Program-made: the position numbers and the translations under genes
In this document: one piece after another, positions 14,034 through 28,500 of the stretch
Layout: every line of letters begins with the position of its first letter
How positions within the stretch are numbered: position 1 is the stretch's first letter
Origin: Ischnura elegans
Lineage: Eukaryota; Arthropoda; Insecta; Odonata; Coenagrionidae
Assembly (NCBI RefSeq): GCF_921293095.1
Contig: NC_060259.1
Span: forward strand, 7,440,001-7,504,000
Reading direction: 5' to 3'
DNA: 64,000 nucleotides
The notes under the pieces: model-generated
The model's input: only the letters and a program-made list of their open reading frames with translations
Told to the model about the DNA's origin: nothing
Databases searched by the model: none

Positions 14034-14062
14034 AGGCTCCCGGATACCTAGACCAAAAACTA

Positions 14063-14190
14063 CCCTGTAAACACAATGAGTTGCAGCAACGTTGCAGTCA
14101 GGTTGCACGAGGTTGCAGAGGTTGCAGGGCTGTTGAGGTCTCTTTGCAACGTCCTGGCAACGTTGCAGACAGGTTGCTTTGCAACGTCCT
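14063..14190 (+). repeat. Left terminal and GTTGC-rich subterminal repeats
   Basis: The terminal CCCTGTAAAC is followed by a cluster of GTTGCA / TTGCAACGT motifs in both orientations (AGCAACGTTGCAG, GGCAACGTTGCAGACAGG). Clustered short subterminal repeats of this sort are the transposase-binding arrays of CACTA-type elements; binding here is inference. Confidence 0.65.
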
Positions 14191-14650
14191 TACAACAATT
14201 TTCCCTCATTCATTAAAATATGAAAATATTGAGCTAAAAGAATAGGTACCCACACAGCAGAGGATATTCCTGGAATATCCTATTTTGATCCCTTATATTC
14301 CTATTTCGTCCCAGAGACATTGCGAACCATTGTGGGATATTCGCGGTATATATTTTGACAGTAGGCTTTTGTGTGTGTAATAACTGAGTCACAGTTGTTA
14401 CAGTGTGTTTCATCATTTCTTTTCGGAACACCCAAGAACGCCGTCCACCTGGGGTGCTACGAAATGCAGATTAATTAAAAAATCAATCAATTCCCTTAAG
14501 ATGTAAAAAAAATCCTGCCATGATAAGTTTTCCTCGTTTCATAAAGAAGAATGTTCTTCGAAATGTGATTTCACTCGTGCTTTTTAATCTACTAAGGCGA
14601 TGATACAAAAAAGATATATTTCCCAGTGGGATTTATTCCTCAAGTCATAA

Positions 14651-15149
14651 CCCAGTGAGAAATGGGTGGTGGAATCCACGTGGAACCCACGTGGAATCCA
14701 CGTTGAGTGGTGGATATTTGGTGGTGGTGGATATTGAGTGGTTGGACCCACGTGGAATCCACGTTGATTTCAAGTGGATTTGTGGTGATTATCATAAAAT
14801 GTTAAACAGAATTTCTAATTTGTGGAACTTAACTCTCTGGTGACATTGCGTCATTTATCATCCTGAAACCACGCTAGTTATGTGAAAATGTATCGCACAT
14901 TCTATTTTTATATAATTCGTGGAAAGGCAGCCATGAGAGCACATGAAAAATCGTAGACACATATATAGAAGGTTTAGATATAGAGTGGTTGAGGTTTTAA
15001 TGGTTTTAGGACAGCACCAACTGCTGTTTTAATTTTTCCACCAAATTTCCACGTGGGTTCCACGTTGATTCCACGACAAAAACACGTGGTATCCACGTTA
15101 ATTTTCCACGTGGGTTCCACGTTGATTCCACCACCCATTTCTCACTGGG
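14651..15149. mobile_element. MITE with CACGTG-rich internal repeats
   Basis: The ends are inverted repeats beginning CCCAGTGAGAAATGGGTGG (left) and the reverse complement (right), about 25 bp. Inside each end is a run of CCACGTGGAACCCACGTGG-like units, so the whole element is a large interrupted palindrome of 499 bp. It lies inside the 11.5-kb transposon, upstream of the transposase gene. No target duplication is obvious. Confidence 0.75.
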
Positions 15150-16302
15150 CTACAAGTTGTTTGCCTCCTCTGTATTAGAAGTGACATTAGTATACTGTAT
15201 CCTAAGTTCTTGAAACCTGCTCCGAACTCGCCATTTGAATCTACACTAATATTCATCTATAGTATATATATGCTTTACATTATACCATGATTATGGCAAT
15301 GATATCTTATTATTTGGATTATACCGGAGCAAAACAATCGATGAATTTATAATAGAGTTTTTAACACGACATTTGTGAAATTATTACGACTATCCTATGA
15401 CTAATAAAACATACTTAAAATCAATTTACGTAATACGAATTTAGGACAATTCAATATTTCATACGTCCGAGGTAGGATTGCCCTGAATAACACCACTAAA
15501 CTCTCACTCTCATTCAAGTGTAGCTATTTTTAATACATTTATATATTAAAATATCTACGCTCAGCAACATCTACAATTAGTGAAGCAGATGACGGGAAAA
15601 CGTCTTGTAAACATGGTTTAAAAACAATATACGTCAACACATTTTCAGCCCAAGTATCCAATTAGATAAATGGTAGAAAATATGTAGCTTACTCGAGAGA
15701 TAATATATTAAGCGGATGATAGCGACAAATATGAAAAAAAAAACATTTGCACACAGACAGATAACATTACCTCCAACTCGAAAAGGTACATTCCGGAAAG
15801 AGAACCTGAGAATTATATGCTAGACAAGAACGATGTAAATTACGTGATATATGCAGTTAAATATGCATAAACACTACTTGAACGAAATTAAACTACGTCC
15901 ACAACGATAATGAACATTACTGTTCGCACGGCAATGTAAATACATAACATATATTACAGTATGTTATTATAATATATATTATTCCGTCGCCTGCTGTGGT
16001 CTGCTGTTTACGCGGGGAAACTTTTCGTTGACAACGGTCGTCAACAAAAATTTTCGTTCACAAAACTCGCGGCGCGACCACGGGCGCGATATTCGAAATG
16101 GCTAAGCGAATAGCAACAATGCAATATTTTTCACCTTAGCAACCACGTCAACAGTTATAACTGAATTGCCCTACAGCAGTGTTTGGATTAACCAGATCAA
16201 CGCTAATAATTTTCTCAGAACGTGTGGACGATCATTTAGCTAATAAAGTCTGATAGCTAATAAATCCAGAATCCGAAGTCATCGTTTTGCCTTAGGGGAA
16301 GG
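15150..16302. other. Probable 5' region of the transposase gene
   Basis: No open frame. A GC-rich stretch at about 15980-16095 (GCGGCGCGACCACGGGCGCG, preceded by GACAACGGTCGTCAAC) is the best place for a promoter of the gene starting at 16303, but no TATA box or initiator is convincing. Confidence 0.3.
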
Positions 16303-18959
16303 ATGGAAAACGCTAAACCTGTGAGTATTAAATAATGAAATCATAATACCATTATGTTTTTTGGAGTACCTAAATTATTTTCTTATAAAGAACAGACAAT
16401 TATACAATTTTCAAAGTTAATTAAGTGAGCAAGAGATGATCTGTTTTATTCCCATCAATCTACATCTACATCATGATTTTCTACGGTGGCTATTAATTAT
16501 AACTTACTGTTGGGTATATACAGACAAATGACTTGAAAAATTACTAATGACTTTTAATGTGACCGCTAAGTTTCGTCTTTCCATGTGTTTTCTTGTTCCT
16601 CTGCCCATTTTTTTAAGATAAAGAAAAGTGTTGTTTGTCTTCACCATTTGTGCATTTTGAGGAGAGCATGAAGTGCTTGACTATCAGTACCATTCTCTCT
16701 TCAATTATTTTATCAGTATTATCTAAAAATATTGTTCTTTCTTGTATATTCGAGGGTTTCGAGCGAGCGCTAAAACGGCGAGCAGAAAAAATATCTAGTG
16801 AAAAATCTAGGCTAGTTGCTGCAGCAAGCAAAGTGCAAAGATGGGTTCAAGAACTAAGAAGAAATGAGAGGGAAGAATTTATCAATGAAGAGAGGAGTTT
16901 TTCATCCCACCTGGAATCAGAAATTCAAAGCGACAGTGGAAGTGCTAATAGTGCCGAATTTGATCCCCTTACCTCAGGTGAAAGTGAGCAGTTGAACCCA
17001 CAAATCAGCAGTGAAAATAGTTTTGATAACATTGAGTCTCACCACAGCTCTTCAACTTCAGGTGGTTATAGTCATTTGCCTGAATCACAATTTTCTGGCA
17101 TAAATATGCCTGACCAGAGTTTTAAAAAGGATGGTAGTAATGGTAATATGGATGAAGCAGGGATATTTCATGATGAAGATGACAAAGTAAAATATCTACT
17201 AGAATCTTTGAGAAAGTGGGGGTCATCGGGAGTTCCTATGAGGAAAATTGATGAACTGTTGTTTTATCTTAAGCCTTTGTATCCTATTCTGCCTTCTAGC
17301 TATAAAACTCTTTTCAACACACCAAAGAGCATCCCAATCAAAAGCATAGGAAATGGCAAATTGTGGTACAGAGGAATTCGTGAAAGTTTAAATAAAATTT
17401 TGACTTGGAAATACCTGCATTCACACCAGGAAATTATAATAGATATAAATATAGATGGACTCCCTCTTCACACCAGCTCTAGAACCGAGTTTTGGCCTAT
17501 TTTGGGGTGTCTTGCTGGTAAATATCAGGTGCCTTTTCCAATCACAGTTTTTTGTGGTAAAGGTAAGCCTGAAAATTTAAATATGTTCCTGAATGATTTT
17601 GTGAAAGAGGCTGGGGAGCTCATGGAAGGAGGTTATGAATATGATGGAAGGATTTTTCCTTTTCGCATTCGTCACTATATTCTTGATGCTCCGGCCAGAG
17701 CTTTCGTTAAACAATGCAAAGGTCACACTGGATATGCTGCATGTGAAAAGTGTACTGTGATTGGTGAGTGGGTGGAGGACCGAGTGACATATGCAGAGCT
17801 TAATTGTCCTCTTCGCACAGATGAATCTTTTCAAAGAAGAGACCAACTAGAACACCATCTTCATGCCCCTGGTGCAGATATTGATGATCATGATAATGGT
17901 GAATGGAGAACTCCATTGGAACAAATTGGAACTGGTATGGTTTCTCAGTTCCGATTGGATAGCTTCCATTTAGTGTACGGGGGAGTTTTCAAGAGGCTTG
18001 TAGGAGCATGGATTTTGTGGCCAGGTCCATGGAAACTAAATAGAAATGCATTCTCTGAAATTTCTGACAAACTTGTGTCAATCAAGTCATGCTTTCCATG
18101 TGAATTTAATAGACCCCCAAGAAACCTTCAGGAGTGGAAACTTTATAAGGGAACAGAGTGGAGACGCCTTCTCTGTTATGATGGCATGTTAGTTTTCAAA
18201 CATAGAGCATTTAATGTGAACATTTACAAGCAGTTTTTACTTCTCCATTGTGCCATTTTCATTCTAGCAAGCCCTTATCATGTCCAGCAAAATGAGAACA
18301 TTGAGAAGGCAGAAGAATTGTTGGAGGCATTTATTAAGCATTGTGCATCAACCTATGGCAAACGTTTCATCTCGTATAATGTCCATTCACTAAAGCATTT
18401 AGGAAATGAATGTCGTGAACATGGCGCTTTGGAGGAATTTTCAACATTTAAATTTGAAAATAAATTGAAATCATTGAAAGAATCTCTCCGATCTGGCCAC
18501 AAACCACTGCAACAGCTAGCATTCAGGGAACTTCAAAGAGATGATAGGAAAAAGATTCTGAGTGAGCCACAAAATGATGTTAAATTAATCCATAAACTTA
18601 AAAATCCCTTTGAAGATGTGCCAGGAATCCAGTACAAAAAGTTAAAATATCATAGGATAACTTACAATACAAAAAGAAAGTATGATTCATGCTGCAGAAC
18701 AAAGTCCGGTGATATTATTATCATTAAAAATATTGTGCATAGTCAGGAAGGAAAAGTGATACTTGTTGGAAACAAGTTTCTTTGGCAGGATGATTTCTAT
18801 CATTATCCTTTAAACTCATCTAAGTTGGGCATACTTAAAGTTAACAGACTTGATGGCAGAACATTGCACTTTGACTTCAATGACGTCCAATCCAAATGTA
18901 TTTTACTACCTGATGATGATGACGGATTCCTTTGCATTCCTCTTCTTCATTCTTTCTGA
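16303..18959 (+). CDS. Tnp2/CACTA-like DDE transposase (two-exon model)
   Basis: This would cut and join the ends of the 11.5-kb element. My model is exon 1 16303-16320 (ATG to the GTGAGT donor) and exon 2 16755-18959 (after TTCTTGTATATTCGAG), giving 740 residues. The same frame is open from an ATG at 16635, but that adds a hydrophobic stretch that fits an intron better. Features seen: an acidic/Ser-rich N-terminal third; IDINIDGLPLHTSSR with Asp at about residue 240, followed by FWPILG; ILDAPAR at about 317 followed by KGHTGYAACEKC (a Cys pair); RLDSFHLVYGGVFKRL; and YNVHSLKHLGNE followed by FSTFKFEN with Glu at about 574. These match the animal Tnp2-like transposases I know by pattern. The frame is uninterrupted, so this copy may be functional. 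The assignment of catalytic residues is inference. Confidence 0.75.
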
Positions 18960-19090
18960 CATTTATTTCATTTTGAGGTAAACTAACATGTATCATATTT
19001 GCAGCAGTAATTCATAAATGTATGAATGCCAACAAATTTAAATTATCTATTAATCTAATTATTACTTATGTCACTATCACCTTTTTTCAG

Positions 19091-21117
19091 TTTGTGGTGG
19101 TGAAGTTTCAAGGTGAGGATGTTGATGGTGTAGAGTTTTTTGCTGCACCAACTAAGTGGATTAATTTTTCTGAAAAAGATGGACGACCTTCAGCAAAAGA
19201 GAAAATACAAATATACTGGCCTCCACAAAGTACTCCTCCAAATCTTGTAACAAAAATGGCAAGGAAGGAGACTGGTCCGCAGAGTGACTGGACTCTTCAC
19301 TCAGCAATTTTGAAACGGTATTATGGTAAGTCAAGGCTAAGGTTGAGTTATTTCTTTAAATCCTGTTTGTATTTTCTTATCTTTTAATGTCTGGATTTTA
19401 ATTGCAGCCTCATATCTAGAAGCAAGGCAAGGGGCAAGGCTTGCTGAAGAGACGTCAAACCTTGAGAGTGACGAATGTGGCAAGAGGAGGAGACAAAGAA
19501 AGAGGAGATATGATGAATCATCCTCTGATGAGGATGAATATAGTCATAATTCAAAGAAAGTGAATCCACCGCCACATTTTTTGACAAGGAAATAGCAGTT
19601 CCCAAATATCATAAGAAGGCTGATAATAACCAGCCGTCAACTTCAACTGCTAGTGGAAGGAGGAAGGCTGAAAGCACAATTCAAAAGACAGGAATTGGGT
19701 GTAGTAATGAAAAAAAGGGCGAATCAATGGAAAATGATGAGCCAGTTAATGCAAAAAGGCAGAAAATAAGAAGCAGTAATTTTCAGCCTTTCTCTGGTGA
19801 AGACGTAGCTGCACAAGAAATTGGCAGAAATGATTCTGGCCAACCCCTACAAAATGTTGATGATTTGCAAGGTAATCTTAACATTTGCTTTTTTAATTAA
19901 ACGAATGCTACTTTCCACATGTAATTAAGGAATAATATTTCAATTTTATGTTTTAGGTACTTTGGATGTTGTTCTCAGGGAACTAAGAAGCCAGAGAAAA
20001 ATTATTAGTTTGCTAAACAGCAAAATGGACATCCTGGTAATGAATCAGGCCCAGACAAATAGAACATTAACTCCTGCATTGAAGAGAGTCGAAAGACCTC
20101 CTAACCTGCCACCCTTTCCAGTGACATCTCACGTCAAACTGGAGAAAATGGAAAGATTCCTGGACAATAAGTCAAACTTTGCTGCTACTGTATGTATAAA
20201 TGTTATGTATTACATGATTTAATTTCATAGACCAAACGACTGAAAGTTAAAACTTAACACATGTTGCTGATGATATTCTGCTTTTTTATTCAATTTCAAA
20301 TTTTAATTTTACAAATTTGGTGATATGAGAAGGTATACTCTGATATATATATATACATATATATTTCTATTATTAGATGGACTACCTAAGCTGCTATGTA
20401 CTGCAAAATGATGCAAAATCTATATCTGTAATGATGGGAAAAATTATGACAAATAAACTTGCAGTAGAATTCAATTATAATGGCAAACCTCCAAAAGAGG
20501 CATTTAATAAACTTCGCTTAAAAGAAGTAATTCTTGGTGAGTAGCTAAAGATGAAAGAGATTAAGTTAAATAGCTTGCTCGTTATTGGGTAAATATCTGT
20601 TGATATAAATATTTAATGTATGCTATAGTGAGCTTCAGTTTATTTGATTATCATTTTTAAATCGTAACAATAAGATTATTTTTCATCATCCTTCAGAGAA
20701 TATCTTACCCTTTGCATATCATCAGGATGCCACCATGATAATCAAATTTAATGATATTTAACCAGCATACTCTTTTCCTTATACATAATTCAATGGCATT
20801 CTTACAATATTCACCAATAAATTTAGAATTTAAAGGGACAACAATTCTTGATATATGCTGCAAGCTTTAAGTGACTCAACATATATATTCTCCTCCGTTA
20901 TTCACTTCAGTTTTTATGGTCTAAGTAAAAAAAGGTTTTCTTTTCAGGTGCAATTCTGTTGAAACACCCTGAAAGTGATCTGGTTGTGGCTGAGTCAGCC
21001 ATTAAAAATTGGCTGAAATACGCTAAGAAAAGGAAGCAGGAAGGTGACGACGATGAAGATGATGAATATGATGACGAAGATGATTATGATGATATTGAAT
21101 TGAATGGAAGACTTTAA
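19091..21117 (+). pseudogene. DUF4806-domain partner gene, one frameshift
   Basis: Five exons: 19091-19325, 19408-19871, 19957-20189, 20377-20536 and 20948-21117, each with GT-AG borders. Exon 1 (VVVKFQGEDVDGVEFF, then WINF and IYWPP) is the usual N-terminal block of DUF4806 proteins. Exon 2 is basic and Ser-rich. Exon 3 has a coiled-coil-like LDVVLRELRSQRKIISLL and the PPFPVTSHVKLEKMERFL lead-in. Exons 4-5 hold the DUF4806 core (DYLSCYVL, MTNKLAVEFNYNG, LRLKEVILG) and an acidic tail. Phases match except in exon 2, where a six-T run at about 19576-19581 is one base out of register and gives TAG at 19592. The first exon with the start codon is not found; ATG 19022 is open into exon 1 but precedes a good TTTTTTCAG acceptor. 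Its role is unknown; it may help the transposase. Confidence 0.65.
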
Positions 21118-21477
21118 ATTGTTATATTAAATTTTTTTAGATTGAAACTTTTAAAATACTTTACTAATAAAGTGTTTTCTCATTTTTGAAACATTTAAAT
21201 TTAAACTTATTATTTACATTAAAACTTATTTAAAAATTGATTAGATGAACCAAATCATGGCAATACACATGGGTGAAATCATCAATAAGAGCTATCTAAA
21301 AATTGTTTGGTTAGAATTCTTAACTTCCTGACCATTCTCTATGTATTCTCTAGCTTATACCATTCCAACTTTGGAATGGTATAAGGAAGGACATTAGCTA
21401 TAATTAGCTCCTGTGTATTTGGCATATTTGCATGGTACACAGTACCAATACGTACAATCCAATGCAACAGGTACATA

Positions 21478-21767
21478 GTGGTCGAGGGTTTAATTGTTTT
21501 GGGGGAGCACCTACGGCTATTTTAATTTTTCCACCAAATTTCCACGTGGGTTCCACGTTGATTCCACCAAATTTCCATGTGGATTCCACGTTGATTCCAC
21601 CAACTTTCCACGTGGGTTCCACGTTGATTCCACCAAATTTCCACGTGGATTTCACGTTGATTCCACGACCAAAAACACGTGGTATCCACGTTACATTTCC
21701 ACCTAATCTCCACCGTAATTTCCACGTGGGTTCCACGTGGATTCCACCACCCATTTCTCACTGGGAA
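21478..21767. repeat. CACGTG-rich ~33-bp tandem repeat (partial copy of the 14651 MITE)
   Basis: About six units of TTTCCACGTGGGTTCCACG / TTGATTCCACCAAA repeat head to tail. The block matches 14980-15149 including the right inverted end (CCACCCATTTCTCACTGGG), but the left half is missing and the array is longer. Frames that read through it on both strands are repeat artefacts. Confidence 0.8.
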
Positions 21768-22879
21768 GGCGAAACTTAATTTTTCCCCTACCAAGATTTA
21801 GACTCCCGCCCGCGATGTCGAGCTATCGATTGTGGATACCATCGATGGTCGATTCCACCAATAGTCGATTTCCATCGAGAGAAAAACAACATGCCAACGG
21901 CCATGGCCGTTGTCGTATTCATGTGCACATTAATAATGTTACGTGAACTGTGTTGTGTTCTTCGTGAGCGGAATTGATCCTGCCGAAGCATATCAGCCTC
22001 TTAAGTTCTTCTTTTACTTGTTTCACCAGCACCTAGGCAATCATCTACTGTTACTACGTAATTTTGTAGTGTTATGTTTGCGAAACTTCTCCAACAAAAG
22101 TTTATCAACCGCTGAAGTTCTACTTTTGCTTCCTTCATCAGAATCTGGGTAAGTAGAAGTGTTGCTTATTGCAACATTTTTTATTTTAAATGAAGCATAT
22201 TCTTAATATTTTCAACCTTCTCACACTTCCTGAGACAGCTCAGTCAATCCATCTTCCGTGGATTGAAAAACATTGCATATGCATAAACTTAAAGTTATTT
22301 TAATGCTTGACGCATTGCATCACCGTAGTGTGGGAGGATTATGAAGAAAAACTTCTCGGCTTTACTATTTATTGAGTCATTTAAAGTTATTTACATTTTT
22401 TATAGTGTTTATTTTTCATTTAGGTGTAGTGGGTTTAAGTGTAGCTTCATGTCAAAAACATCTTCATGATGATGTAAAAAGTTTTGGATCAAAGTTCCAA
22501 TCAGGTAATTGTTATTAAAAGAAAACATTTCAATCAATTTTGTGTCTCATTTTTGATAATTTTTTGTAGTTAAAGATGTCACTGTGATTTTGTTAAAGAG
22601 GGGATAAGTAATGGGATTTGATTTGTTGGAGGCAAGTCTATTTGTGCACATTACTCAGGGATAAAACCATTGGGCCATAATGATAAAGTGAATATCAGTT
22701 TATCTGTGGTAATGTTATTAATACCCAGCCCAGTATAGGAAATGGTTTAGATTCATCTTCCTTTATGTTTGCTTGAAGCACTTTTCAATAGAGTGATCAA
22801 AGACTTTGAGATGCGTTGGCTCCCTAATATTGTTTTCTTCTAAGCAAGCAGACTGTTTGATCTTGATTCCAATTATGCA

Positions 22880-23403
22880 GGGTATCCCATTTATCTTGAC
22901 CACCCGAAATAACTTTTTGTTCAGATGGAAGTTCAAAAATGTGTCAAGCAAATGTTCATAAGCCCTCAGGGGGACATTAATCAGCATGACTGCCTTCCTT
23001 GTATCTTTGTTTCTACAAAGATTTGAAGAGTGGTATGTCTTTTTTAAATGACACCCTATATTTTTTATGAATGACTGGTGGAGTAGTTCCAATACCCGCC
23101 TTCCTGCACTAAGTGCTATTGAGTCAGACATTTTTCATAACACTGTGTTTATGTTAATGGTCCACTGTGCTACATTTTTGAATAAGTCTTTAGGAGAGGA
23201 AATGAACTGCCAAATATAAAATATAGGGTGCCATTTTAAAAAGACATACCGCTGTTCATATCTTTGTAAATAATAAAGCTACAAGGAAGTCAATCATGCT
23301 AATTAATGTCCCCCTGACGGCTAATGAACATTTGCTTGACATATTTTTGAATTTCCATCTGGACAAAAAGTTATTTCGGGTGATCAAGATAAATGGGACA
23401 CCC
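22880..23403. mobile_element. Foldback element with ~180-bp inverted arms
   Basis: The left arm 22880-23060 (starting GGGTATCCCATTTATCTTGA) and right arm 23222-23403 (ending AAATGGGACACCC) are reverse complements with some mismatches. A ~160-bp spacer separates them. The minus-strand frame at 22763-23131 lies in the arm and is not a gene. Confidence 0.7.
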
Positions 23404-23489
23404 AGTATTCTTCATGTAAAATTGTCATAGTGGATGTGTACAGCCTTTGGTTCAATGAATTATCCCTAATATAATAATTTTTATTTCAG

Positions 23490-25196
23490 ATTGATTTTTT
23501 GAAAAGAGTTGGGGGTTCTACTCCACCAGATGCAACAAGGCGTGGGTTGAGAGCATCATTCTTAGATGATATTGCAAAATATTATTTATTGGAAGGCCTT
23601 AAAGGGAACATAAAGTTTGGACAGACACACATTCTTTTGGCTCTAAGCTGTAAGTAAAGTTTTCAAATTTCAATTAATTAAATACTTCAATGAGACCAAC
23701 ATATGTCAGTAGCTTAGGTATTTTCCTTGAGAGCTATCAGCAATCCATCCTTGCATTTTGTTGAAATTCTTGCAAGGACATTACTTTTGTTATTTTGTGC
23801 TGTCCAGCGCCCAGAATTGAATTATGCTCTCTAGTCTCTTGGGTTGTATTCAAAGTTAGTACTCTCCCTTTCAATACAACCCTAGCATTCGATTATTTTT
23901 ATTACCATTCCTATGATTTTCAAGATTGGCTGTTCTAAAAAATATCATGAGATCATTTCTGTTTTCTTTGAATGACATTCAATTATTGTTGTGCTTGCTT
24001 ATTTCATTAACATTTGGACTAAACTTTTATTTCTCTAAAGTAAAGAAACCACTCTCCAGCCTTAAATTTATCAGGTGGATTTTGTGGGAAAATTAACTGC
24101 TTACGCCTTAATTATCGAGGTCATTTCAAGATCTCATGTAATGACAGTAATGATAATAGAATCGCTCAAGAAAATGACTAAGTATATGCAGCCAAGCTCG
24201 TGTCTCAAACCCTTGTTTGTCATTTCATATGAAGTAATTTGCCAACTCTTGCCTCATAGAAAGTCCAAATTTGTGGGCTCTGACCTAGGTGGCAAGTGCA
24301 ATACTAATCCTGCTGATTTCATCAGCTGACCATCACATCTTATTGGTTATGTGCATCTATTTAAAAATGGCCCTATAAAAACTACTGTCTTAATTATATT
24401 ATAGTCAATTTACTTCTCACCTTTATAATAAGATGAAAAGTACATTATACATATTTTTTAGTAATGTAAACTTCTTCTGGTCCCATAGTTATTTCTGAAG
24501 ACCTTCTTCAGTATTTAAAGAGAATTGAGAAGACGCAGCTGGAAATTTTAAAGGAAATTCGGGCTTTGAAAAGAGCTAAGTCGAACTGCCAGATGCCAGA
24601 TGAAAGTGACAACGACTTATTATTGACCTGGAAATTCCCCATGGATACAATGGAAGAATTTGATGCCCTGGAGGTGGAACTCCTCAAAAAGCCATTCCAC
24701 GCAGCTCTGGTAAAATAAAACTTTTGAGTGTCATTTGTTTGATGGGCTTTTATAAGTAGCTATTTGTGAGTTTTTTGTGTTGTAAAAATTCCTCTGATTT
24801 TTCAGACTGTAGAGTTATGCAGACGAGGTCGGAATAACATTACTGAGGGTGTTTTCGGCATGTTATACCACCTATTTACCAATAACCTTGGTCGGAGATT
24901 TTCATTTTTCGGCCATTCCAAAATGAACACTAAAAAAATCCAGTTCTGTGCCACCAGAACGTGTGCCTGTATTATTGGTATGTTGTGCTTATAAAATTAT
25001 TTCAAAATGGGAACTGTTCAATAAAACTACTTGTGTCTAAAATCCTTACTAAAATTTAATTTCAGATGCTTTCCGTTGCAAGCCCACATTAGAGGAATAT
25101 GGCCATAAGCACATAAAGGAGAAGGCAATTGACTGGTTCAGGCACGCTGAGTCAAGGCATCAGAGGGTGGAGGAAAGGAAAACAAATTGTAAATAA
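23490..25196 (+). CDS. Second DUF4806-type gene, 5'-truncated exon chain
   Basis: Four exons join in frame: 23490-23649 (TTATTTCAG acceptor), 24489-24709, 24806-24977 and 25066-25196 (TAA). The first exon (DFLKRVGGSTPPDATRR, LDDIAKYYLLEG) is 160 nt with the same phase as exon 20377-20536, so it is a copy of a DUF4806 core exon. The second holds a coiled coil (ISEDLLQYLKRIEKTQLEIL) and WKFPMDTMEEFDALE. The third repeats the core (GMLYHLFTNNLGRRFSF). The fourth ends WFRHAESRHQRVEER. The order is therefore core half - coiled coil - core, which looks like the remains of two tandem genes. No N-terminal KF/WPP exon is seen upstream. An AATAAA follows at 25201. Confidence 0.6.
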
Positions 25197-25249
25197 GGAA
25201 TAATAAAAAAATTTCCTTTGAAACGACACAATTTAAAGTATTATTTATT

Positions 25250-25564
25250 AAAGGTTGCATCACGTTACGCTTCTGGTGGCGAAGATTTGTGAAAATGTAG
25301 TAAGGATTAAATTTTGGCAGTAAATTGGTTGACGTGAGACGTAGCTGCAACGTTGTGGCAACCTATATGGTTTACAGAAGGTTGCAGGCAGGTTGCAATC
25401 ATGTTACGTGTCACGTTGCAAAGATGTTGTGAAGACGTTGTGAAAACGTAGTACGGAGGACGTTTGGCAGTAAATAAGACGTTGTCACAACGTTGCATGG
25501 AACTCCCAGTTGGTTGCCGTGAGACGTTGCTGCAACGTTGTGGCAACCATTATGGTTTACAGGG
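25250..25564 (-). repeat. Right terminal and subterminal repeats, terminus duplicated
   Basis: The terminal ~53 bp at 25512-25564 (GTTGCCGTGAGACGTTGC through GGTTTACAGGG) recurs with few changes at 25329-25380, where it ends GGTTTACAGAA. Between them are further GTTGCAA and ACGTTGTGAA motifs. The array mirrors the one at the left end. Confidence 0.7.
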
Positions 25565-28500
25565 TACGCTGCAGACGTCTGGGCAGATTCGTCTGAGGCC
25601 TCTGTTATTCTATGCACATAACATTTGAATGCTTACTTACGAAGAAGAAACATCGATATTTAAAAAGATCGTCGTAATTTTTCATTTCTCGTTATTCACA
25701 CTGCAATATTGACCACGGAAAAACACTAAATTCGGCAAAATTGGCTGCCTGCTATGGCGTGTGTGATGACGGAACCCAAATTTTTTTACGTTCTTTTTAA
25801 ATGATAATCCTTTATCTTCCTATTAATCCATACCATATTAATATACTCCTCATAATAGCGACACTAAGTCAATCTATGCGAACCTTTGCACGCTATTTTT
25901 GCGTTCTCCGCGGCAGCAACATTCTCCCGTTCACATTGCCCTCAGCCACTGTGCGAGTCTCAGCGGGCGGGAGAAGGGGCAATGGAGGGGGACAACGCTT
26001 GCACGAAGTCTGTTGCCTTCAGTTCGCCGGCAGCCGCCCAGCCGCCGAGTGGAATGATATGTATTGCTCTTTGCTGCGTGAGGGTCGCTTTTGTATATGT
26101 GATACGCGCTTCGGAGCCGAATTTTAATCTAGTTCAACAACACGCTCAGGGACAGGAATTGATTCACGGTAGACGCGCAGAACGCCGCGTACTATTTAAC
26201 AGTACATGATCTTATTGCCAATATACTGCCATACGATGATGATTTTTTCCGTGAATCTTTTGTTCCGATGTAATTACAAAAAGACATATCAATACAACCA
26301 AGATGCATTTCCCACATAACATGCGTGTAAATGTACTTCGTACATTTACTATCGGTAATGCCGGTTTATTCTCAGCGGGGAGGATTGCTACAAATGACCT
26401 TGATCAGTTTATATCCCCTTCAGTACTGCATTGTACCCTGATGCATCAGTTCATTTCGAGAGTAAAAGTTTCCTCTCATCGGTACAATCTTCCTGGCCAT
26501 AATTTTATACGAAAAATAAGATCAATTATACCTATTCATTCTGCTAAAAATGAAAGATTACCTATAGATTTATGAGTCTCGAATGTTTATTTTAAAGAAA
26601 TTCATTAGTTTCAATGCCTAAAATTATGTAACAAATATAATTCTTGATAGGTCGTGTCACGACATAGATTACCTACGCATCGTGTACCAGCGTGCAGATT
26701 TACATCCGTGTGTTCTATTACCGATATTTTCAAATTTTTCCAATTGAAGTTTTTTCTTACGTGCAAGTCAAGAACTCATGGACAACTTGTACCATACATT
26801 ATGCATGGCAATATGTTTGCTTAAGTCATAAAAAAAACTTATGCTAATTTTACGGTGCATGCATTTGTCAATTGCCACGAAAATATTTAGGAAATCGGTC
26901 ACTTTCAACCCACACTTGCACTCTACGAGCCCTAAAATAGAATTTTTCTCCATATGACGTCTTTTATGGCTATTTGAACAATTGAAACGGAAACTTAGAT
27001 AAGTAAGTTATAATGCAAAAGATATGGCAGCATTATTGAATTCGTAATTCCTACATAAAAGGTAATGGTCTAATTTTTCAGTGGAATGAGTGTCGTTTTT
27101 TGGAAACTTAAATATAGATAATATATTTTAGGACTAGTTTTGCGTCTCTCATTATTTTAAACTTAAACAGAATATCATATCGCACACTATGTCATTGATT
27201 CACGGACCCAAAATTTTTGAATGAGGCAACAGGATGCACGAATGAGGAAAGGATTCCGCACTCGCGTCATCGCAATCTACGCAACACCGCATATTTTGAT
27301 ATTTTGCTGCATAAAAATACGATAATTTGATTCTCATCTTCCCACTGTCCTATTCGTCTCACGTCAATGTTTAGACCCTTGGTTTTTACTACAATTTCGC
27401 TCGCAGTTTCATCATAGTCAACTAAGCCTTATAAATTGAAAAAAATGGGCATAAGTTTCAAATAATGTTACATTTTCACGGGTATCGATTGAAGGACTTC
27501 TGGTCAAATTAGAATGAAATCACTATGAAAAATGCTTGTTTCTTTTATCGGAATAATCTTATATTTCCCTTGGATTGGAACTGTCCGAAGAAATTTTTTA
27601 ATCCGGGATAGAAGTCATTGGAATTTATGCTTGCACTGGACGCTTCCTCAGAGACGATACAAGTTCAAATCACGCAAGTGCTAAAACAGGGTAGCTATTA
27701 TGGGCGTATCTTGAACCGCACGTTCACATCACAGGACCTTAGATCGTAGGCGGCGGAAGACTGACTTGATGTTCGTGTGTCCATTGATGTTGCCACTTGG
27801 TCTGCCGCCTCTGGCAGCCCTTCCTTACTCTAGAATTTTATTTATACGCTCTTATTATTAATAAAACATGCCCACCTTCTCGTACACAATTTCGTCGATT
27901 TACCTGCGAAGCCAATATTTGCAGTAAATACGCCGAAAAAAGCATCTTTTTTAACGCTATATTTTTTTTACTCACGTCTCGAACTGAAAGCTTTGGTAGA
28001 ATAAGTAATCGTCTCCAGAATCTCCAGAAGAACAAAGTAACATATTCACTTATAAAAATAACTTTCTAACAATTTTAACAATTAACTTTTTATGCGTACA
28101 TAGATTATGTGAACATTCACGCCCATTCTAACATTGGCAACAACGTCCACCAACGATATACGGCCTGAAAATAGCCAAAATAATTGAGTCCGTCGTGCAT
28201 CGTTACCTATTAATCAATTTATCTGTAGTATTTTATAAAAGTAAAATAGTAAAAAGAATTATAAAATTAATTTTTGCAATAGATATTTTATGCTTCGTTA
28301 GTTTTTACATGAAAGACTTCTGTCGGGAATCGCATTTGAATAGGGATTTAAAAATTTATTTACGGAGTACCGCCATGCCTATTGCATTAACATATGAAAA
28401 AATAAGATATGCAAGTAAAAAGCAAAGAAGAGAAAGCGTATTTTTTTCATGAAGAAAGCATTGGTGAAGTGGTATTGCACCCTTGTTCGAAACTTATTTT

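Follow-up and report, generated by a model that had tools for sequence, protein, structure and literature searches.

The maize transposon En/Spm encodes two proteins, TnpA and TnpD, bears subterminal repeat arrays and has many non-autonomous derivatives; TnpA helps to bring the Spm ends together. Transib elements have a target-site duplication of 5 bp. TnpA-TnpD transcripts of En/Spm are described in the cited part of DeMarco et al. 2006 (PMC1636069), which also covers the CACTA-related TRC elements of animals, namely SmTRC1 of Schistosoma mansoni and elements of Aedes and Tribolium. These have inverted ends starting with CCC (Aedes CCCAGTCAAC, Tribolium CCCTAGTAGC), a 2-bp target-site duplication and a Tnp2-like transposase; a SmTRC1 transcript (clone B4) has two tandem open reading frames, and the sections cited here report no detectable conservation of TRC parts outside the transposase domain (PMC1636069). 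We analyzed 64,000 nucleotides of the genome of Ischnura elegans (contig NC_060259.1, positions 7,440,001 to 7,504,000; hereafter the window), in which an earlier note had described positions 14063 to 25564 as a single 11.5-kb transposon combining a Tnp2-like transposase gene with two DUF4806 genes. Judging from its junctions, this interval is an inner element, B, inserted in an outer element, A; B carries the transposase gene and the first DUF4806 gene (D1, hereafter the partner).

Element B fits the animal TRC elements. Its inverted repeats begin with CCC (CCCAGTGAGAAATGGG), as do those of A (CCCTGTAAAC), and it is flanked by a 2-bp target-site duplication. Unlike the described TRC elements, it has a recurring DUF4806/BEN partner and a transposase with a BAH-like C terminus. 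It resembles En/Spm in layout, having two proteins, subterminal repeat arrays and non-autonomous derivatives; the end sequence and duplication length of En/Spm differ from those of B. From Transib and the RAG1/RAG2 system, B differs in having a 2-bp instead of a 5-bp duplication and another partner protein.

A TRC-type element inserted in a second transposon

The outer ends given in the earlier note were confirmed. CCCTGTAAAC lies at 14063-14072 (+) and 25555-25564 (-) with TA outside each, and mirrored GTTGC subterminal arrays are found at both ends: the first 140 bp (14063-14202) hold 11 GTTGC/GCAAC motifs, whereas the maximum per 140 bp averaged 2.2, and never exceeded 5, in 300 sequences simulated with a first-order Markov model of the window's initial 14 kb. 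The end motif alone was ruled out as evidence, TACCCTGTAAAC (a 12-mer) being no commoner genome-wide than its reversed control (211 versus 219 occurrences) and CCCTGTAAAC with at most one mismatch giving 2 matches in the window versus 3.4 expected. The outer boundaries are credible because of the flanking GTTGC/GCAAC array and because complete copies bounded by these ends are found at other loci.

The interval did not hold as one unit. Full-length copies of A, present in the window and at L010 (C2), L015 (C6) and L18_19 (C1), are 99.1 to 99.75% identical pairwise outside gaps, the L015 copy carrying further insertions. A search for other copies with the same ends and gene set, which the earlier note had proposed, gave 4.4-kb elements with CCCTGTAAAC ends (in the window, 14063-14650 plus 21766-25564) and no transposase, so that other copies ending elsewhere, which the note had named as grounds for rejecting its idea, do exist for the supposed 11.5-kb unit. 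The three copies outside the window lack 14651-21765 and have a single AA at the join: where the window reads ...TCATAA/CCCAGTG...CACTGGG/AAGGCG... (slashes mark the borders of B), all three read TCATAAGGCG. Because the empty sites keep one AA where the window has two, we conclude that a 7,115-bp segment was inserted with a 2-bp duplication. One could instead suppose that a single 11.5-kb CCCTGTAAAC element carried the transposase and both DUF4806 genes and that the 4.4-kb copies are internal deletions. The genes do all lie on one strand, bracketed by matching ends, and deletion derivatives are frequent in CACTA-type elements; truncated SmTRC1 copies are described in the cited part of PMC1636069. 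We nevertheless consider this explanation barely tenable. The gap in the three copies coincides exactly with perfect 46-bp inverted ends and leaves one AA at the join, and a deletion is unlikely to stop precisely at the ends of another element while sparing one copy of the duplication. Furthermore, a second full-length B-type copy of 7.1 kb with the same ends is found at C4:124569789-124576895, flanked by TA/TA in different surrounding sequence.

The duplication of B is thus AA/AA in the window, as read against three empty sites, and TA/TA at C4. Its ends also agree at C7 (left end fetched) and C5 (right end fetched); at C7 the match to B stops within the partner gene. The first 33 bp of B occur 1,044 times exactly in the genome, compared with 0 for the reversed control. 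Among 100 listed places of this 33-bp end, 68 make 34 converging pairs less than 700 bp apart, 17 of them 500 bp and 8 of them 489 bp long. These correspond to an abundant family of miniature inverted-repeat transposable elements (MITEs), one of which seems to form the left end of B, as its first 499 bp close with an inverted copy of the end. B may in turn supply this family. The short derivatives that the earlier note had suggested looking for were found, for the outer as well as for the inner ends. Table 1 lists the features of the interval.

Table 1. Features of the interval, in window positions
Feature	Position	Strand	Remarks
Outer element A, left part	14063..14650		starts CCCTGTAAACACAATGAGTTGCAGCAACG; TA before it at 14061-14062; L010, L015 and L18_19 share the starting bases
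Outer left subterminal array	14063..14202		GTTGC/GCAAC with CAACGTTG palindromes
AA target-site duplication of B	14649..14650 (left copy), 21766-21767 (right copy)		empty site TCATAAGGCG in 3/3 copies
Inner element B	14651..21765	+	7,115 bp; transposase and first DUF4806 gene
Inner left terminal inverted repeat	14651..14696	+	begins CCCAGTGAGAAATGGG; 46 bp, reverse complement of 21720-21765
Left end block of B	14651..15149		terminates in another inverted copy of the end, 15104-15149 (45/46); size and form of the MITE family
Transposase gene	16303..18959	+	exon 2 16755-18959; position of exon 1 (16303-16320) taken from P0001
First DUF4806 gene D1 (partner)	19091..21117	+	placed exons: 19091-19325, 19408-19871, 19957-20189, 20377-20536, 20948-21117
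Inner right subterminal array	21469..21765		CCACGTGG palindromes
Inner right terminal inverted repeat	21720..21765	-
Outer element A, right part	21766..25564		ends GTTTACAGGG; TA after it at 25565-25566
Foldback repeat	22875..23408		137-bp arms, 90%; inside A; also in L010, L015 and L18_19
Second DUF4806-like gene D2	23490..25196	+	placed exons: 23490-23651, 24489-24709, 24806-24977, 25066-25196
Outer right subterminal array	25320..25564		mirrors the left array

The transposase and the DUF4806 genes

Exon 2 of the transposase gene is a single open frame, and the protein is 99.9% identical to LOC124162203 across 734 residues. The CMC supergroup (EnSpm/CACTA, Mirage, Chapaev) is defined, in the part of PMC12730594 cited here, by three residues, D, D and E, of which the last two enclose C(2)C and H(3-4)H. 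This signature is present, with C2C and H3H, and its residues are conserved in nearly all 37 aligned sequences (D240 36/37, D317 37/37, C336 37/37, C339 37/37, H550 36/37, H554 37/37, E574 37/37). In a search with the Transposase_21 model (PF02992), the window protein was not listed at E 1, and its relatives P0051 (E 2.4e-4), P0042 (4.2e-3) and P0123 (0.019) were all below the cut-off. Structure modelling predicts a RAG1/Transib-like DDE core followed by a C-terminal BAH domain; the transposase alignment matched no solved structure by sequence. Among viral contigs, 19 pattern matches included no relative.

As the earlier note had stated, all three genes lie on one strand (+) between the CCCTGTAAAC ends, but the second DUF4806 gene is below the Pfam cut-off and the three do not share one element. 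The spliced exons of D1, whose borders were set by eye, using AG/GT and the match to P0121/P0122, score 27.2 bits against DUF4806 (PF16064; cut-off 25), and its near-copy P0122 scores 25.2 bits. A first domain is encoded in exon 19091-19325 and the DUF4806/BEN part in the last three exons. The window copy is frameshifted in exon 19408-19871; copies open across that stretch exist. The DUF4806 part is predicted from models to adopt a BEN-type fold, a DNA-binding domain, preceded, tentatively, by a Tudor-like domain. D2 is more diverged than D1 and can be called DUF4806-like only, with 22.2 bits and E 1.7e-4, and its exon 23490-23651 searched by itself against Pfam gave no family.

The transposase-partner pair recurs

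Our results support the central idea of the earlier note, a mobile element that carries a Tnp2-like transposase together with a DUF4806 gene, for B and, on the evidence of the first exon of the partner, beyond it. A search of the Ischnura genome with the transposase returned 61 matches among 767 candidates, including four near-identical full-length frames (the window among them). The pairing counts cover 30 of the 61 matches, fetched with 1.5 kb of flank and searched with a profile of the partner first exon that drew on the Ischnura gene and on gene models of thrips and was then extended once with its own matches. The exon was found in 17 of the 30 loci and, after extension, also in L111 (18/30). 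In all 18 it lies downstream of the transposase, on the same strand and within about 0.7 kb, and no match was found in 206,863 bp of control sequence, which consisted of loci with some overlap and the remainder of the window. Single-linkage clustering of the transposases at 70% identity gave 12 clusters, 8 of which had the partner first exon. Cluster representatives with measurable similarity are 29 to 54% identical, and the partner-bearing ones 29 to 51%. A DUF4806 gene that does not travel with the transposase, which the earlier note had named as grounds for rejecting its idea, is contradicted for B and, as far as the first exon of the partner goes, for these eight clusters; in the other four, no partner turned up within 1.5 kb.

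Twelve loci lack the exon within 1.5 kb, and even when matches with E up to 5 were admitted, they gave nothing above chance level. They comprise seven P0100-like loci, the two members of the L098 cluster, L117 and two fragments (L097, L119). The P0100-like transposases (L104-L110) are 39 to 43% identical to that of the window and have frames of 541 to 591 aa. Their family has either lost the partner or has a longer gap between the genes. Many of the divergent transposase matches (G000 C11-C17 and contig ends) are located on small contigs or close to the termini of long contigs, a pattern that could be due to chance.

Outside Ischnura, partner homology was found behind the transposase in one gene model in 15 relatives, all from Frankliniella thrips or ants, among the 120 listed out of 482. 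All 11 listed relatives longer than 780 aa are among the 15, 10 of these 11 having themselves entered one of the two partner profiles; with the window sequence alone, blastp found partner homology in 11 of the 120, including 9 of the 11 above 780 aa. It is the transposase search that supports a pairing outside Ischnura, because searches with the partner protein gave only two isoforms of one Ischnura gene and, besides the query, one more thrips protein among the matches listed. The model P0077 of Frankliniella fusca joins a Tnp2-like transposase and the first domain of the partner to DDE_Tnp_4, possibly a nested insertion merged by annotation.

In Ischnura, the DUF4806 part was matched only in L092, L093, L095 and L096 and not in the divergent loci, where it may lie beyond the 1.5-kb flank. 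Against a pairing with DUF4806 itself, only one of 12 long thrips and ant models passes the Pfam DUF4806 cut-off (P0080, 34.1 bits), three being below it and eight unlisted at E 0.1. Partners from thrips are thus remote from the Pfam model. The pairing that the earlier note had suggested seeking in other arthropods was seen at the level of partner homology and, for the Pfam domain, in this one model.

Loci lacking a partner also bear on whether the DUF4806 gene is host DNA or captured passenger cargo with no role in transposition. No partner was found near some transposase families, and in the gene model LOC124170148 (P0121/P0122), a near-copy of the partner is joined in frame to a zf-AD domain, which is possibly a host capture of partner exons or an annotation artefact; a decayed transposase, L097 (C13:9273238), lies on a contig equal in length to that of the gene model. 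Against this, order and strand recur over clusters only 29 to 51% identical within one genome, as well as in thrips and ants, and capture without selection is not expected to preserve such an order. We therefore hold the passenger explanation to be improbable.

The outer element and related ends

On the evidence of its copies, D2 belongs to A, which carries no other of the three genes. Its exons are also found in L010, L015 and L18_19, with 0 to 2 differences each, and none of the four full-length copies contains a transposase. One explanation is that the outer family has lost its own transposase from the copies seen and that D2 is a remnant of a second, independent pairing. In agreement with it, the outer copies have ends that start with CCC, are flanked by TA and carry a DUF4806-like gene and a palindrome array of matching form, yet no transposase, and short derivatives exist (L050, L051, L020+L017). 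On the other hand, no transposase-bearing element of the outer type was seen at the 78 TACCCTGTAAAC places inspected out of 211 (100 listed; 40 of the 78 taken as 251-bp pieces). We consider the chances of this explanation to be even.

Of these 78 places, 21 lie in transposon ends of this kind (11 of family A and 10 of the AGCGCTGC family described below) and others in unrelated repeats, a tally made partly by eye. Six converging TACCCTGTAAAC pairs with 3 to 12 kb spacing were picked by eye among the 100 listed places, and fetching them revealed real elements. L009, L011+L012, L013 and L014 form a second CCCTGTAAAC family of 3.0 to 11.7 kb, which shares the terminal CCCTGTAAACACAA and differs in its subterminal repeats, AGCGCTGC. 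These copies gave no significant match to a transposase or to DUF4806; the long frames of the 11.7-kb copy resemble, by eye, a reverse-transcriptase insertion. The family may be mobilised in trans by enzymes that read only the outermost bases. In addition, TACCCTGTAAAC lies inside a dispersed repeat continuing CTTTTCGTTATTG (L028, L057, L058, L059, L071, L072, L085, L087) and inside a second one continuing AGGCCTTT/AGGTCTTT (L005/L021, L006, L022, L068, L073), and its genome-wide count is inflated because these two repeats contain it.

Subterminal palindromes and the role of the partner

The two inner ends hold 10 copies of CCACGTGG, with 1 in the 52.5 kb of the window outside the interval, and the two outer ends hold 5 copies of CAACGTTG, with 0 outside. 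Each is the most frequent of all 256 palindromic 8-mers in its ends. A third family, besides A and B, has two or three CAGCGCTG, but equally many GCTGCAGC. All three sequences, CCACGTGG, CAACGTTG and CAGCGCTG, are palindromes that fit C-N-R-CG-Y-N-G, with CpG at the centre. BEN domains with known targets recognise short palindromes or CpG motifs: in the parts of the sources cited here, the BEN-domain protein NAC1 binds ACATGT (PMC7764960), and a preference for unmethylated CpG is ascribed to BANP and BEND3 (PMC11472053). Whereas such BEN proteins (BEND6, Insv, Bsg25A, BANP, BEND3) are host chromatin factors, D1 is encoded by a transposon, beside the transposase.

We propose that the DUF4806 protein of each element would bind its own subterminal palindromes, CCACGTGG in the inner and CAACGTTG in the outer element, and that the partner would pair the transposon ends for the transposase in the way of maize TnpA. 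Binding could be sensitive to CpG methylation, and non-autonomous relatives (the MITEs of about 490 to 500 bp and possibly A) would use both proteins in trans. Alternatively, the partner might bind the ends as a regulator or anti-silencing factor, controlling transcription of the element, with no structural part in the transposition complex. The predicted BAH and tentative Tudor-like folds suggest chromatin reading, and the palindromes in the arrays of both elements are centred on CpG, in line with the preference ascribed to BANP and BEND3 (PMC11472053, as cited). Such regulation is, however, compatible with a double role like that of TnpA, and as an exclusive function we find it rather unlikely. 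Nesting, ends, empty sites, the further full-length copy and the order of transposase then partner on one strand are read from the DNA itself. Overall, a 7.1-kb TRC-type element inserted with an AA duplication in a 4.4-kb DUF4806-bearing element, with the predicted folds and a putative TnpA-like partner, is the explanation that we consider best and probably correct.

Implications for DUF4806 and animal CACTA elements

The transposon type, animal TRC, is already known, and what is new is the identity of the partner. Our literature search, which drew on partial texts, found no published link between DUF4806 and a transposon, between a BAH domain and a CACTA transposase or between EnSpm/CACTA and DUF4806; Repbase and Dfam were outside it and may already hold such two-gene elements. 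Nor did it find an earlier description of the partner, of its recurrence across clusters and insect orders or of the BAH and BEN folds.

More broadly, and with somewhat less than even confidence, we suggest that much of DUF4806, which would be a branch of the BEN DNA-binding family, is an accessory DNA-binding subunit of animal CACTA-type transposons. Both proteins would carry a module like those of chromatin readers (BAH in one, a tentative Tudor-like domain and BEN in the other), the partner would recognise C-N-R-CG-Y-N-G at the ends, perhaps only in its unmethylated state, and domestication or capture of partners would account for some of the DUF4806 genes of hosts. The pairing offers a concrete candidate function for DUF4806, as a DNA-binding protein that the element encodes beside its CACTA-type transposase to assist it, and adds a RAG1-related transposase with a predicted chromatin-reader-like module. 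In the cited part of PMC7642931, two Hydra have 69 and 54 DUF4806 genes and five other cnidarians 0 to 6, in a table that includes several transposase domains, and DUF4806 is reported as enriched among the own genes of an ambrosia beetle (PMC13270666, in the part cited). Such lineage-specific bursts could be transposon copies and, if our proposal is true, animal CACTA elements would gain a counterpart of plant TnpA.

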